A stretch of 35,448 nt of DNA from Candidatus Woesearchaeota archaeon (lineage in GTDB: Archaea; Nanobdellota; Nanobdellia; Woesearchaeales; JAGWAF01). A program made the translations under genes and the position numbers. This document shows positions 1 through 33,182 of the stretch, piece after piece. Within the stretch, counting starts at the first letter, position 1, and every line of letters begins with the position of its first letter. A model generated the notes under the pieces. It did not search any database, was not told where the DNA came from, and worked only from the letters and a program-made list of their open reading frames with translations. The stretch is from assembly GCA_018303205.1 (NCBI GenBank), contig JAGVYP010000031.1, positions 1 to 35,448 on the forward strand, read 5' to 3'.

Positions 1-1642
1 TAATCTTTTCTTTGCTTATTTGAGAGCAAGAAAAGGAAAAAGTACAAGGCAGTATGTTCTTGATTTTGAAAAAAATTTAAATCAAAGTCTGATGCAATTA
101 CAACAAGAATTGATTACGCAAATCTACAAGCCAAAACCGCTAGAAACTTTTATCTTGCGTGATCCTAAAACTAGAAAGATCAGCAAATCAGATTTTAGGG
201 ATAGGGTTGTGCATCATGCACTCTGCGCCATCATCGAGCCATTATTTGATAAAAGGTTCATCTATGATTCGTATGCTAACAGAATAGGTAAAGGAACGCT
301 CAAAGCTATAGAGCGTTTTGATGAATTTAAGAGAAAAGTTTCAAAAAATAATACGAGAACTTGCTATGTTTTGAAGGCTGATGTCAAGCATTACTTTGAT
401 ACCGTGGATCATAAAATTCTTATAAATATGATCAGTAAAAAAGTGAATGATGAAAATATAATATGGTTGATACAATGTATTCTTGATAATCACAAAACTA
501 ATGATAAGTGTATAGGCATGCCTTTGGGTAATCTTACTTCACAATTCTTTGCAAATATTTACCTTAATGAGCTTGACCAATTTGTTAAACATCAATTGAA
601 AGCAGAATACTATCTCAGATATGTTGATGATTTTGTCATCCTGCATCATGAAAAAAGTCTTTTGAATATCTATAAGCAAAAAATAGATGAATTTCTAAAA
701 AACACTTTAAGATTAGAACTTCATCCTGACAAATCAAAAATTATCAACCTTCATCATGGCATTAGTTTTCTTGGTTTCAGAATTTTTTATCATCATAAGA
801 TTATACGAAAAAAGAACAGAAGAAAATTAGAATCAGCGCTGGATATTATGAAAAAAGAATACAAACAAAACATGATTGATAGAGAGAAAATTGTAGAACG
901 CTTCGAAGGATGGATCAACTACCTAAGCCATGCAAACACTTTCAAATACAGAAGACATCTCTTAAGGCTTTTCAATCAAAACTTCCCATTGAACGCCCCC
1001 CCCTGTACACAGAACACTACGACAACAAGGGGAATACAGTCTGCTAAAAAACATGAAAATTTCATCACCAAACTAGAAACAAACAATTCTCCATTCAGCA
1101 GACAAAAAACACTACAACTCTACAAAAAAGGATTAAAAATCAATGAAATAGCAAAAAGAAGAATCATCAAAGAATCAACAGTATGGGAACACCTCATCAA
1201 AAGCATAGAATACAACCAACTATCAGTCTGGAAAATTCTGCCTAAAGAAAAAATACAAAAAATACAAGAAAAAATATACAGTGCGGAAGACAAACTCAAA
1301 GACATCAAAACAAGAATAAAAGACAATACCATAACCTACAATGAAATCGCTTGCGTACTCGCACATTTCAAAAGCAAAACAAGAACAAAAAATATTATCC
1401 ATCACCTCAACGGGTACAAAAAAAACCATTGCAAAAGAAAATGCTATTTTAATCCAGAACAAAGAAAGCAATGCGAACAAAAATTCAATCAACTCCTAAC
1501 ACAAAATCCTGCCTTAGCAATGCAAAGAAAAGAATTCCTAGACTTCTTTAATAATCAACTTATTATTTGCATACTTCCAGAAAAAGAAAAAAGAGCATAT
1601 CTGAGCTGGAAAGAGTTCAGAAATAATATCAAAAAAAGTTAA
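1..1642 (+). CDS. Reverse transcriptase, DGR-like, with C-terminal HTH_40-like domain; 5' end truncated by the window
   Basis: Frame is open upstream of the listed start (NLFFAYLRARKGKSTRQYVLDFE). RT motifs: frDRVVHHAL, LKADVKHYFDTVDH, GMPLGNLTSQFFANIYLNELDQFVK, YYLRYVDDF, ISFLGFR. The GNLTSQ motif is DGR-type rather than the QGxxxSP of group II introns. C-term 'TLQLYKKGLKINEIAKRRIIKESTVWEHL' resembles RecQ/YpbB HTH_40. Confidence 0.9.
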   Translation, partial: NLFFAYLRARKGKSTRQYVLDFEKNLNQSLMQLQQELITQIYKPKPLETFILRDPKTRKISKSDFRDRVVHHALCAIIEPLFDKRFIYDSYANRIGKGTLKAIERFDEFKRKVSKNNTRTCYVLKADVKHYFDTVDHKILINMISKKVNDENIIWLIQCILDNHKTNDKCIGMPLGNLTSQFFANIYLNELDQFVKHQLKAEYYLRYVDDFVILHHEKSLLNIYKQKIDEFLKNTLRLELHPDKSKIINLHHGISFLGFRIFYHHKIIRKKNRRKLESALDIMKKEYKQNMIDREKIVERFEGWINYLSHANTFKYRRHLLRLFNQNFPLNAPPCTQNTTTTRGIQSAKKHENFITKLETNNSPFSRQKTLQLYKKGLKINEIAKRRIIKESTVWEHLIKSIEYNQLSVWKILPKEKIQKIQEKIYSAEDKLKDIKTRIKDNTITYNEIACVLAHFKSKTRTKNIIHHLNGYKKNHCKRKCYFNPEQRKQCEQKFNQLLTQNPALAMQRKEFLDFFNNQLIICILPEKEKRAYLSWKEFRNNIKKS

Positions 1643-2273: not shown

Positions 2274-2370
2274 GTCATCACGGAGATCTGCTGTTCCGTT
2301 GATCACAGGTTTTGCGTCGAACATCCTGCATAAATCGGGTGTTCTCCTGGTTGTGCTCCAAGGTGATGAC
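2274..2370 (+). repeat. 97-nt structured repeat element, copy 1
   Basis: GTCATCACGGAG...CTGCATAAATCGG...CTCCAAGGTGATGAC; ungapped alignment to copies at 11851-11947 and 21805-21901 (reverse strand); terminal inverted repeats. Confidence 0.8.
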
Positions 2371-2436
2371 CATGCTAACAGTGAATTTCGACCTGAGGAT
2401 GGTGACCTTAAAGAAGAATACAAACTCTTTTTTTAT

Positions 2437-3939: not shown

Positions 3940-3993
3940 AGCTGTACTTATTTTCTAAGTTTTTTTGTCTATTTTAGATTTTTGTTTTGAAAT

Positions 3994-4135
3994 GTCAAAA
4001 ACCACCAATCAGAGATTGGTGGCATGTGGCGACATGCCACTATCAAGAGGTTTTTGAGCATGCTCAAAAATTTTTTACTATTGAGAGTCCATTGGCTTCC
4101 AGCCACTAGTCAGAGACTAGTGGAAAATTTTTGAC
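3994..4135. repeat. Hairpin-rich intergenic element with terminal inverted repeats, copy 1
   Basis: Ends GTCAAAAA...TTTTTGAC; hairpins CCACCAATC-AGA-GATTGGTGG, GTGGCATGT-GGCG-ACATGCCAC, palindrome TTTTTGAGCATGCTCAAAAA, CCACTAGTC-AGA-GACTAGTGG. Second copy at 22025-22224. Confidence 0.85.
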
Positions 4136-4163
4136 ATTTTTATGTTTTTTAGTTTGTTGGTGG

Positions 4164-11850: not shown

Positions 11851-11947
11851 GTCATTGCCTTGTAGTAAGATCAGAAAATGATCCGATTCATGCAGGATCA
11901 TTTTCGCAATGTCTGCGATCAACGGAGCAGCCTAACTACGCAATGAC
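11851..11947 (-). repeat. 97-nt structured repeat element, copy 2
   Basis: Reverse complement GTCATTGCGTAGT...AAAATGATCC-TGCATGAATC-GGATCATTTT...ACTACAAGGCAATGAC; perfect 10-bp central stem and outer inverted repeat. Confidence 0.85.
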
Positions 11948-12021
11948 TTTTAAAAGAGAAAAATAAGCCAGAAAGATCTCCGCAACAACACAAAAGAAGA
12001 AAAAGACAACAAACAAATTTA

Positions 12022-12046
12022 GCTACGCAATGACTTTTGAGAAGAG
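12022..12046. repeat. Partial duplicate of the end of the 97-nt element
   Basis: GCTACGCAATGACTTTTGAGAAGAG versus ACTACGCAATGACTTTTAAAAGAG near 11935. Confidence 0.6.
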
Positions 12047-21804: not shown

Positions 21805-21901
21805 ACTCCTGCCTTGGAGTATTGCCAAAAAAACAGCCGATTCATGCAGTTCGATTTTGGCAAGAGTTGCGATGGAACGAGCAGTAAGCCTCCGTGACGA
21901 C
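21805..21901 (-). repeat. 97-nt structured repeat element, copy 3 (most diverged)
   Basis: Reverse complement GTCGTCACGGAGGCTTACTGCTC...CTGCATGAATCGG...CTCCAAGGCAGGAGT; ungapped relative to the other copies. Confidence 0.75.
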
Positions 21902-22024
21902 CTACTATAAAAAAAGAAGAGAAAAATAAAAAGGTAAAATAAACATAAAAAATTTTGAAGAGGATAACAAAAAAGAAAAAATTTGTCTAAAGAATAGTTT
22001 TGGATGTTCAGATCAGTTTCTTTT

Positions 22025-22224
22025 GTCAAAAACCACCAATCATAGATTGATGGCATGTCGCGACATGCCACTATCAAAAGTGGTTCATCAAAAATCGGTA
22101 AGATTTTTGAGTGTGCTCAAAAATGCATTGCATTTTTGACATTTGAGCATGCTCAAAAATTTTTCACTGTGTATAGTCCATTGGCTTCCTGCTACTAGTC
22201 AGAGACTAGTGGAAAATTTTTGAC
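22025..22224. repeat. Hairpin-rich TIR element, copy 2 (expanded centre)
   Basis: GTCAAAAACCACCAATCATAGATTGATGG...ACTAGTCAGAGACTAGTGGAAAATTTTTGAC, with additional TTTTTGAG..GCTCAAAAA units. Confidence 0.85.
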
Positions 22225-22839
22225 ATTTTCAAGCCAGGTTTTAATCTGTGAATACATAAAGTCATACCCTGCCTTATTAGGATGCACACCATCTTCTAAA
22301 AATAAGGTATACTTTCGCTTATGCATTTTCTTAAACATGTCTAAAAATAAAACTTTTTCTTTGGAACAGCATTCTTTGACGATCTTATTGAAAAATGCAA
22401 CTCTTTTATTCGTGAAAGAAGTTTCTTCATAAGGTAGTGTTCTTGTTTCGTCAACAGGAGGAAGACCTATACACCCTAATTGAGCAGGGTAACTTTTCGC
22501 CTTTTTGAGAAGTGTTCTCATATTTTTTCTAAAAGTTTCTTCTTTCATTCTTGGATTTTTCTGTTCTGGCATGCCGTCCCATTTACAATCATTACTTCCC
22601 ATAGCGATAAGAATGATATACTGATCTGAAGGTCTTTTTAGTTTGATCCTTGCTTTGCATTCAATATCAAAACGTTGAAGAAGGTCTTGGGAAGTATTTC
22701 CAGGAATGCCGAGATTATATACTGCATGATATTTATCTTTTGCTTCAAAAAATTCTTTAAGCCTACCACACCATCCATAAGAAGGAGTTTCTCCTCTTCC
22801 AAAAGTAATGCTATCTCCAAAGCAGAGGATTCCAAACAT
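22195..22839 (-). CDS. SGNH/GDSL hydrolase
   Basis: ILCFGDSITFGRGE (block I), GIPGNTSQD, AMGSNDCKWDG, DGVHPNKAGYDF (block V). Confidence 0.9.
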   Translation of the reverse strand: MFGILCFGDSITFGRGETPSYGWCGRLKEFFEAKDKYHAVYNLGIPGNTSQDLLQRFDIECKARIKLKRPSDQYIILIAMGSNDCKWDGMPEQKNPRMKEETFRKNMRTLLKKAKSYPAQLGCIGLPPVDETRTLPYEETSFTNKRVAFFNKIVKECCSKEKVLFLDMFKKMHKRKYTLFLEDGVHPNKAGYDFMYSQIKTWLENVKNFPLVSD

Positions 22840-30535: not shown

Positions 30536-31082
30536 TTGTGATGGTACTGTGGAAAAAGCGAGAGGGGCTGTTTCTATCACTTCAGCAAGTCCGCAGATGT
30601 TAAAAGATGTACAGCTTTTATTATTACGGTTCTCATGCCCAAGTATTCTCCAGAAGGATACCCTTTATATCTCAGGCATAGCTGCACGCGAGTTTGAAAA
30701 AAATATTGGATTTGGTATGCAGGAGAAAAGAATAAAATCAGAAAGATTAACAGAAAAAGTGCAAGGAAGCCAAGTCATTGATACTATTCCTTTATCAAAC
30801 GAGAAATTAATTAAGGTAAGAAAGATACCTCAGGCATCTATTGATCATCATTATTACAAATATGAGAAGGGAATCTTAACTCCAACTGTTGATACGGTTT
30901 TAAAATTACAACAAAGATTTAAAGACCTTCAATTAGAAACGCATTGGTTTGGGAAATTAACTACAGGAGATCTTACATTTGTTGAAGTTATTTCTTTAGA
31001 GCAGGACTATGAATCTATCGTCTATGATTTTTCTGTTCCGGATCACAAAAATTTTATTGCTGAGGGTATGGTCATTCATAAT
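29576..31082 (+). other. Intein-coding insert in aEF-2 (1507 nt, not a multiple of 3)
   Basis: Starts Cys (TGT 29576), ends NFIAEGMVIHN (AAT 31080-31082) followed by Thr; two LAGLIDADG-type motifs in different frames. Confidence 0.9.
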
Positions 31083-33182
31083 ACGGCTTTCACAGACAAT
31101 CTCATGGCTGCTGCTGGTCAGATGGCTTCAAAATATGCAGGTAATTTGGATCAAGGAATGACCACTTGGCAACATAAGGATGAACAAGAACGTTTAATGA
31201 CGGTTGATGCTGCAAATGTTTCCATGGTGCATGAGTATAAAGATAATGAGTATCTTATTAATTTGATTGACACTCCTGGCCACATTGATTTTGGCGGAAA
31301 TGTAACCAGAGCAATGAGAGCTATTGATGGAACTATTGTGCTTGTTTGTGCTAGTGAAGGGATCATGCCTCAGACAGAAACCGTGTTAAAGCAGGCATTG
31401 CGAGAAAGAGTTAAACCCATTCTGTTCATTAACAAAGTAGATCGATTAATCAAAGAAATGAAGTTGCCTCCAGAAAAAATTCAGGAACGTTTTCTTAAAA
31501 CGATTAATGCTTTTAATAAATTGATTGAAAGAATTGCAGAGCCTGAGTATAAAGAAAAGTGGAAAGTGGATATTATGGCAGGTTCTGTAGCGTTTGGTTC
31601 TGCTCGCGATAACTGGGCATTGTCATTTCCTTTTATGCAGAAGAAAGGTGTCAAGTTTAATGATATTATGAAAATTTATGAGATGGATGAAGAGACAAGG
31701 AAAAAGTGGGTTTGGGAGAATGCTGCTTTATTTGAGGTTATTCTTGATATGGTTATTACGCATCATCCTACTCCTTTGGAAGCGCAGAAGTATCGTATTC
31801 CTAAAATCTGGCGGGGTGAGTTAGAAAGCGAATTGGGGCAAAGCTTGTTGAATTGTGATAGAAATGGAAAACTTGCGTTTGTGATTACCAGAGTGGTCAT
31901 TGATCCTCGTTCTGGAAAAGAGCTTTCTGCAGGAAGATTATTTTCAGGAACGATTCAGCAAGGTCAGGAAGTCTATTTGAACTTGAATAAGCAACGACAG
32001 CGCATTCAACAAGTGTACATTTACAATGGGATTAAACCTGATTCTCTGGAGTCCTTGCCTGCGGGAAATGTACTTGCTATTTCTGGGGTTATTGGAAATG
32101 CAGGAGAAACCATTACCTTAGAACCTGAGCAGCCTTTTGAAGAGTTAAGACATATTTTTGAGCCTGTGATTACCAAAGCAGTGAAGCCTGCAAAAATTCA
32201 GGATTTGCCCAAAGTTGTGGAAGTACTCCAAAAAGTGGGGAAAGAAGATCCTTCTATTAAAATTGAAATTAATGATGAGACCAAAGAGATTCTGATGAGT
32301 GGGATGGGAGAATTGCATTTGGAAATTGTTGAAAATAGGATTAAGACAGAAAAAGGAGTTGAGATCATTACGTCTGCTCCTATTGTGGTGTATCGTGAAT
32401 CGATTACAAAAAAGTCTATAGAAGTGGAAGGAAAATCTCCTAATAAACATAACAAGTATTATTTTGTTGTCGAGCCTGTTCCTGAACAACTCAAGCAAGC
32501 AATGAAGGATGACATGATTCCTGAAGGAAGAGTGAAAAAGAAAAATATAGAATTGCGGAAGGCATTGATGACAGCAGGAATGGATAGTGATGATGCTGAG
32601 AAAGTCAAAGATATTTTTGAAGGTAATATTTTTATTGATAGAACAAGAGGACAAGTGCACATGATTGAGGTTATTGAGATGATCCTTGACATGTTTGAAG
32701 ACGTGATGAAACATGGCCCTCTTGCAAGAGAACCGTGTATTAATGTAATCGTTACTCTTACGGATATGAAATTGCACGAAGACGCTATTCATAGAGGACC
32801 TGCGCAGACCTATCCTGCTATTCGTGAAGGTATTCGTGGAGCAATGATGACCGGAGCTCCGGTTATTTATGAACCGTTGCAAGTTATTTTGATAGAAGCA
32901 CCTTCTGATTTCATGGGAACCTTATCTAAGCTCGCTGCTGCAAAACGCGGACAACTGTTAGATATTATTACTGAAGAAGAAGGAGAAACAACGTTAAAAG
33001 TAAAAATGCCAGTCAATGAAATGATTGGTTGGGCTTCTGATTTGCGCTCTGCAACCAATGGAAGAGGAACCTCTTCTTTAATGGATCAAGCATTTGAAAA
33101 GCTTCCTTCTGAGTTACAGCCTAAGATTAGAGATCAAATTGTCAAAAGAAAAGGCTTAACAGAAGCACAGTTAGGAGCGTAA
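30549..33182 (+). CDS. fusA: C-terminal part of intein + aEF-2 C-extein
   Basis: Frame open from 30492 (VITAQFLRAYFDCDGTVEKARG); VIHN|TAFTDNLMAAAG; EF-2 motifs DTPGHIDFGGNVTRAMRAIDG, NKVDRLIKE, MGELHLEI. Confidence 0.9.
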   Translation: MEKARGAVSITSASPQMLKDVQLLLLRFSCPSILQKDTLYISGIAAREFEKNIGFGMQEKRIKSERLTEKVQGSQVIDTIPLSNEKLIKVRKIPQASIDHHYYKYEKGILTPTVDTVLKLQQRFKDLQLETHWFGKLTTGDLTFVEVISLEQDYESIVYDFSVPDHKNFIAEGMVIHNTAFTDNLMAAAGQMASKYAGNLDQGMTTWQHKDEQERLMTVDAANVSMVHEYKDNEYLINLIDTPGHIDFGGNVTRAMRAIDGTIVLVCASEGIMPQTETVLKQALRERVKPILFINKVDRLIKEMKLPPEKIQERFLKTINAFNKLIERIAEPEYKEKWKVDIMAGSVAFGSARDNWALSFPFMQKKGVKFNDIMKIYEMDEETRKKWVWENAALFEVILDMVITHHPTPLEAQKYRIPKIWRGELESELGQSLLNCDRNGKLAFVITRVVIDPRSGKELSAGRLFSGTIQQGQEVYLNLNKQRQRIQQVYIYNGIKPDSLESLPAGNVLAISGVIGNAGETITLEPEQPFEELRHIFEPVITKAVKPAKIQDLPKVVEVLQKVGKEDPSIKIEINDETKEILMSGMGELHLEIVENRIKTEKGVEIITSAPIVVYRESITKKSIEVEGKSPNKHNKYYFVVEPVPEQLKQAMKDDMIPEGRVKKKNIELRKALMTAGMDSDDAEKVKDIFEGNIFIDRTRGQVHMIEVIEMILDMFEDVMKHGPLAREPCINVIVTLTDMKLHEDAIHRGPAQTYPAIREGIRGAMMTGAPVIYEPLQVILIEAPSDFMGTLSKLAAAKRGQLLDIITEEEGETTLKVKMPVNEMIGWASDLRSATNGRGTSSLMDQAFEKLPSELQPKIRDQIVKRKGLTEAQLGA

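Follow-up and report, generated by a model that had tools for sequence, protein, structure and literature searches.

Target duplications of 9 bp are typical of the IS903-like subgroup of the IS5 family, and the ERIC, Correia and Rickettsia palindromic elements are dispersed imperfect palindromes of approximately 100–150 nucleotides whose fold is conserved. A conserved folded structure is also characteristic of the bcr1 repeats of the Bacillus cereus group. These repeats are approximately 100–400 nucleotides in length, dispersed, mobile and present in tens of copies, and the mobility of bcr elements has been linked to TTTAT motifs and possible site-specific recombination (PMC6542083). REP families tagged with GTAG or CGTC, including dRS3, RPE-4 and RPE-6, are intergenic palindromes with stem variants, some of which reside inside larger palindromes (PMC3733652).

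The element described here is a 97-nucleotide core that recurs in archaeal genomes of the order Woesearchaeales. It shares with the REP families their intergenic palindromes, stem variants within a family and nesting in larger palindromes. However, REPs measure 20–40 bp and carry an unpaired end tag, and the GTAG families accompany Y1 transposases, none of which was found in the two genomes with the most core copies. Size range, dispersal, mobility and tens of copies are held in common with bcr1, but the core elements are archaeal, have a sequence that is unrelated as far as seen, and possess terminal inverted repeats (TIRs) and 9-bp duplications of varying sequence rather than a TTTAT target. 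The ERIC, Correia and Rickettsia elements are similar in size, dispersal and conserved fold but are not archaeal; their sequences were compared via Rfam only. The closest parallel is offered by MITEs of the IS5 family (IS903-like), which resemble the present units in being short, gene-free, bounded by TIRs, flanked by 9-bp duplications and present in many copies, with two full-length partners of the same TIRs in the genome. The ends found here presumably resemble those of IS903. What sets the present units apart is a covarying three-way-junction core that is common to MITEs with different TIRs. We consider it most likely, with a probability of approximately 0.75 for the reading as a whole, that this core is the folded centre of a MITE family of Woesearchaeales, that the family is mobilized in trans by IS5-type enzymes, that pairing in the core is maintained at the level of DNA, and that the core is recognized by some factor.

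The window, by which we mean the entire 35,448-nucleotide stretch of Candidatus Woesearchaeota DNA analysed (contig JAGVYP010000031.1), carries three copies of the core. The first-pass annotation had placed these at 2274..2370 (+), 11851..11947 (−) and 21805..21901 (−), and their positions, strands and gap-free alignment over the whole 97 nucleotides are correct. The fold is a three-way junction of stems P1, P2 and P3. On the model strand, P1a pairs positions 1–8 with 90–97 and P1b pairs 9–12 with 83–86 (GGAG/CTCC or GTAG/CTAC); the two are separated by a 3-nucleotide AAG bulge at 87–89, which reads CTT on the opposite strand as had been described. P2 pairs 18–21 with 32–35, and P3 pairs 43–53 with 64–74 to close a 10-nucleotide loop. 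In the reported copy at 11851..11947, established by sequence, alignment, fold and a covariance-model score of 106.5 bits, the helices of the element strand lie, in plus-strand coordinates, at 11940–11947 with 11851–11858 (P1a), 11936–11939 with 11862–11865 (P1b), 11927–11930 with 11913–11916 (P2) and 11895–11905 with 11874–11884 (P3), with the bulge at 11859–11861 and the loop TGCATGAATC at 11885–11894. Adjoining this copy, at 12019..12035 (−), the sequence reveals a solo remnant of the 5′ arm of P1 (AGTCATTGCGTAGCTAA on the minus strand).

The copy at 2274 belongs to the GTCATCAC subfamily, scores 104 bits and has the loop TGCATAAATC at 2327–2336. Near it lies a candidate outer end, GACCTGAGGATGGTGACCTT at 2390..2409 (+), identified from a listing of flanks in which this sequence occurs 15–37 nucleotides past the 3′ end of the core in several copies of the subfamily; it is probably the outer end of a longer GTCATCAC-subfamily element with ends GGTCACCGTC / GACGGTGACC. 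The third copy, with the loop TGCATGAATC at 21839–21848, scores only 54.6 bits and is probably a hybrid of two subfamilies. An outer inverted repeat had been described and is present at 2274 and 11851, but the outer stem is broken at 21805, where the 5′ arm GTCGTCAC and the 3′ arm GCAGGAGT are not complementary. The loop TGCATRAATC is found in all three, as are the compensatory change in P2 (CTGC/GCAG versus CTGT/ACAG) and the change in the P3 stem between copies. When compared with dinucleotide shuffles, the fold of the 11851 copy has a z-score of −4.5 to −5.4, and those of the other two are weaker (−1.6 to −2.6). A clear pair of TIRs with a target duplication is absent from all three copies in the window, and their assignment to MITEs is made via sister copies.

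Several other features of the window were recorded. The gene at 20–1642 (+) encodes a protein in which a reverse transcriptase (RVT_1) is joined to HTH_40; it is group II intron RT-like, but scores 165 bits against an NCBIfam cut-off of 300 and has many weak DRT/UG matches. A search with Rfam revealed no group II intron RNA, and the protein could be a diversity-generating or stand-alone reverse transcriptase. The archaeal EF-2 gene at 30549–33182 (+), with LAGLIDADG sequence ahead, appears to hold an in-frame intein, and the intein part is also matched by several Woesearchaeota relatives. Two clusters of four or five hairpins at 3993–4140 and 22024–22229, 92–93% identical and bounded by TGTCAAAAA / TTTTTGACA, constitute another palindromic repeat family. 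The motif TTCCTTGTGCCTAACTTTT occurs, with small variations, five times in intergenic DNA of the window (4187, 5507, 7693, 9374 and 9546), and similar sequence lies near other genes of the genome.

A genome-wide collection of copies, as the first-pass annotation had proposed, yielded 40 copies by blastn and 72 by a covariance model built from 54 copies in the window's genome (G000), which is a 1.42-Mb draft assembly estimated to be 85% complete; the E-values of the model are rough. The loop pattern TGCATRAATCGG occurs 33 times in this genome and its reversed control not once, which, together with the 72 model copies, excludes a chance origin. A relative within the same family (G003) carries 39 copies, and two further family members carry none. 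Across the order Woesearchaeales, at least one match was found in 20 of 295 genomes, in a patchy distribution, and all 11 matches obtained from a phylum sample of 382 genomes fall within this order. No copy was found in the viral contigs, phages and plasmids searched. The copies occupy intergenic positions, and no constantly adjoining gene recurs among the 608 ORFs that neighbour them.

Inspection of the flanks revealed that many cores reside within longer inverted repeats. TIR-bearing units with the core at their centre are mostly 141–166 nucleotides in length and gene-free. End types comprise GGTAAAGTCAAG, GGCAATTATGAAACCC, GGCTCTGTAGAAA or GGCTCTGTCCC, and GGGTGTGTCCC; TIRs were found for the GGTAAAGTCAAG, GGCAATTATGAAACCC and GGCTCTGT types and were not found in GTCATCAC-type copies or in copies of GC-rich relatives, whose mobility we suggest by analogy. 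Among 21 copies with candidate ends, 9-bp direct repeats occur immediately outside the ends in 11 exact cases and in four more at 8 of 9 positions. Because these ends were picked by visual inspection of the flanks, an independent grid of offsets provides the better statistic: 25 matches were observed versus 0.9 expected at offsets near (24–27, 16–19), and 15 versus 1.1 at offsets near (36–39, 28–31), with overlapping matches of one copy counted more than once. G003 adds two exact target duplications and four at 8 of 9 positions, and 9-bp duplications accompany MITE-type copies in six genomes (G000, G003, G024, G101, G241 and G264). A solo TIR match (L198) looked like a chance occurrence and was set aside.

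Two full-length insertion sequences in the window's genome have the same ends as core-bearing units. One, of 1,076 bp (L314/L342), has the ends GGCTCTGTAGAA and an 8–9-bp duplication, and encodes a 323-amino-acid DDE_Tnp_1 protein that exceeds the PF01609 cut-off and scores 139.1 bits against NCBIfam model NF033579 (IS5_2), for which the cut-off is 140. The other, of 1,018 bp (L351), has the ends GGCTAATATGAAACCCT and matches a second MITE type. The units are thus short, non-coding and dispersed, with TIRs, target duplications and, for two TIR types only, an autonomous partner. TIRs, 9-bp duplications and two same-ended IS5-type elements in the genome together argue that the MITEs moved in trans, and we infer that the enzyme of the matching insertion sequences acts on the core-bearing units. 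The suggestion of an ‘ssDNA-folded mobile element’ therefore holds with respect to mobility, but the traces are those of IS5-type DDE transposition rather than of IS200/REP-type single-strand movement; a folded-DNA role for the core is possible.

Two related observations concern other elements. In another genome (G011), in which the core was not found, L343 carries a 1,019-bp IS5-type element with the 17-bp TIR GGCTAATATGAAACCCT and an exact 9-bp duplication, AAATAGAAG. In addition, G000 and G003 contain MITEs of 158–203 nucleotides with the TIR GGSTSTGTCCYAAAT and a different palindromic interior, GTTAGCAGC...AGGTCGAG (L281 1501–1666, L275, L289, L264 and L280), which is perhaps a second type of structured core with a variable outer stem.

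Mobility leaves the conserved core unexplained, because DDE transposition of a MITE needs no internal structure. That stems change in pairs while loops and length hold had been proposed from the three window copies, and covariation in their own and other genomes bears this out. Among 54 copies in G000, 94.6% of pair cells are standard; the corresponding figure is 70.9% for shuffles and does not exceed 47% for slid controls. Two-sided changes occur in 22 of 27 pairs and, apart from the number of pair types, shuffles never attain the observed values. Other genomes supplied 83 distinct copies; in these, 93.1% of cells are paired and two-sided changes are present at 26 of 27 pairs. In five of seven genomes, the outer stems also reach further outward than chance predicts (in G000, 3.6 bp versus 0.6). 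We considered whether these copy-specific outer stems arose because the core had inserted into palindromes that already existed; no empty sites were found when they were looked for.

The nature of the mismatches indicates the level at which pairing is maintained. With both TC/TC internal-loop positions omitted, 3,400 pair cells contain 59 G·T (10 + 49), 60 A·C (19 + 41) and 59 other mismatches (11 + 48). Selection on an RNA would preserve G·U and eliminate A·C on the strand of that RNA, and any bias in the A·C count would be downward, because the covariance model tolerates G·U. In the stems of 19 tRNAs from the same genome, 35 of 409 pairs are G·U, or 8.6% versus 1.7% for the core; the G·U fraction is the fair comparison here, since the absence of A·C from the tRNA set is partly inherent in the tRNA finder. 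The stems of the core are thus Watson–Crick and strand-symmetric, and we infer that their pairing is maintained on DNA.

The unpaired parts of the core have a different character. A survey of 155 copies drawn from all genomes found an uninterrupted loop of TGCA, one to three bases and AATC in 136, and TGCA and AATC split by an insert in 11 more; the C-AAG-G context of the bulge is retained in 147. The loop is forward in 134 of 138 copies and inverted in none, and a 2×2 TC/TC mismatch is kept across families without correction. Because the loop and bulge are fixed and oriented, recognition by some factor is suggested, and because one core occurs inside MITEs of differing ends, it is not simply the binding site of one transposase. 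We favour a folded-DNA module as the identity of the core. A more specific form of this idea, namely that an independent module read by protein as a cruciform or hairpin was captured by MITEs of different TIRs, with its stems diversifying under Watson–Crick pairing alone and with selection for a DNA rather than an RNA structure, is tentative, with the odds somewhat against it.

The strongest competing explanation, though still unlikely, is that mutation alone is responsible: template switching and hairpin mismatch repair would keep any palindrome perfect, such that the covariation is functionless and the core is MITE filler. This would account for strand-symmetric Watson–Crick pairing and for double changes across a whole stem at an orthologous site, and a single template-switching event is documented to yield compensatory changes at several bases (PMC8794818). 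However, it would not be expected to leave the loop, the bulge and the TC/TC mismatch conserved across families, nor to spare the orientation of the loop, given that template switching also inverts spacers (PMC8604942).

Sites shared between genomes reveal how the stems turn over. Two filled sites, in regions of approximately 90% identity, are common to G199 and G243. Flanks and outer stem are largely retained at both, with P3 (L216/L229) or both P2 and P3 (L222/L237) swapped for other self-complementary versions. The P3 region of L237 is identical to that of L226, at another location in its genome, and this identity suggests ectopic gene conversion; from these sequences the replaced interiors are probably products of gene conversion. 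Identical P3 stems also recur with differing P1 stems, and 10 P3 types are present in G000. In several core copies (L012 2861–3049, L173 1001–1149, L199 and L074 476–626), other hairpin repeats have been inserted solely at unpaired positions, namely the P2 loop, the P3 loop and the P1 bulge. A portion of the L173 composite recurs in L199, and this composite probably moved as a unit.

A structured ncRNA, as the first-pass annotation had allowed, or an mRNA 3′-UTR element is less probable still. According to this proposal, the transcript corresponds to the reverse complement of the model and folds just past stop codons, where it would govern the stability of the mRNA, its termination or its translation, with mobility serving only to spread the element. 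Gene context provides its best support: in G000, both flanking genes lie on the opposite strand for 33 copies versus 8 (p ~1e-4), and copies often lie 15–60 nucleotides past a stop codon. Loops conserved across families are also consistent with an RNA. The bias just after stop codons is strong for non-TIR copies (35:8 in G000) but absent from MITE types (12:12), a contrast with p ~0.01 for which types were split by hand and gene calls were mechanical. Among the non-MITE copies, this bias could arise if A-rich intergenic strands are preferred as targets, or if the copies act as RNA or in regulation. An RNA should tolerate G·U above A·C, whereas wobble tolerance is absent on both strands of the core (59 versus 60); Rfam searches at gathering and permissive thresholds returned nothing relevant, and the distribution across genomes is patchy.

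Very improbable is a site for site-specific recombination that forms when one strand folds, similar to the attC sites of integrons, even though the core combines copy-specific stems with fixed unpaired bases and has hairpins nested in its loops. The outer boxes of attC sites are conserved, whereas the outer ends of the core are its variable part; furthermore, no cassette arrays and, by eye, no R/L boxes were seen, and many copies have 9-bp duplications. The archaeal bulge-helix-bulge splicing motif, considered on account of the 3-nucleotide bulge beside a 4-bp helix, was rejected, because the core lacks both the second bulge and the inner helix and its sites are intergenic. Slightly more improbable again is a REP/REPIN or IS200/IS605-type single-strand element moved by a Y1 (RAYT) transposase, which hairpins with conserved unpaired bases, the GGAG or GTAG motif of P1b and intergenic sites might suggest, but Y1_Tnp was not found in G000 (72 copies; assembly 85% complete) or G003 (39 copies) and is not associated with the core over 36 genomes, and TIRs with 9-bp target duplications are a DDE signature.

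For the core as the folded centre of a MITE, the following series of events can be proposed. A typical TIR-bearing unit consists, in order, of a TIR, a short left arm, the 97-nucleotide three-way-junction core, a shorter right arm and a second TIR. IS5-type DDE transposases encoded elsewhere would act on the TIRs in trans, and the unit would be pasted into a new site with the 9-bp target duplication seen at many copies and, at 8–9 bp, at a matching insertion sequence. After insertion, copies may trade interiors, with ectopic gene conversion as the probable mechanism, as the orthologous sites suggest. The two arms of each stem would be held complementary on DNA, probably through a combination of template switching, gene conversion and selection for the fold, and the folded core would be recognized as a hairpin or cruciform by some factor, most likely a protein.

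Compensatory changes are usually read as proof of a functional RNA, yet the core exhibits dense covariation without wobble tolerance. A count of G·T versus A·C mismatches is therefore a simple test for pairing at the level of DNA that can be used in surveys of both repeats and ncRNAs. In the literature searched, no report was found that combines ERIC with compensatory change, and none that describes MITEs of Woesearchaeota. For the Woesearchaeales, the findings point to an apparently undescribed MITE family with matching insertion sequences, and to a module that is common to MITEs with different ends.
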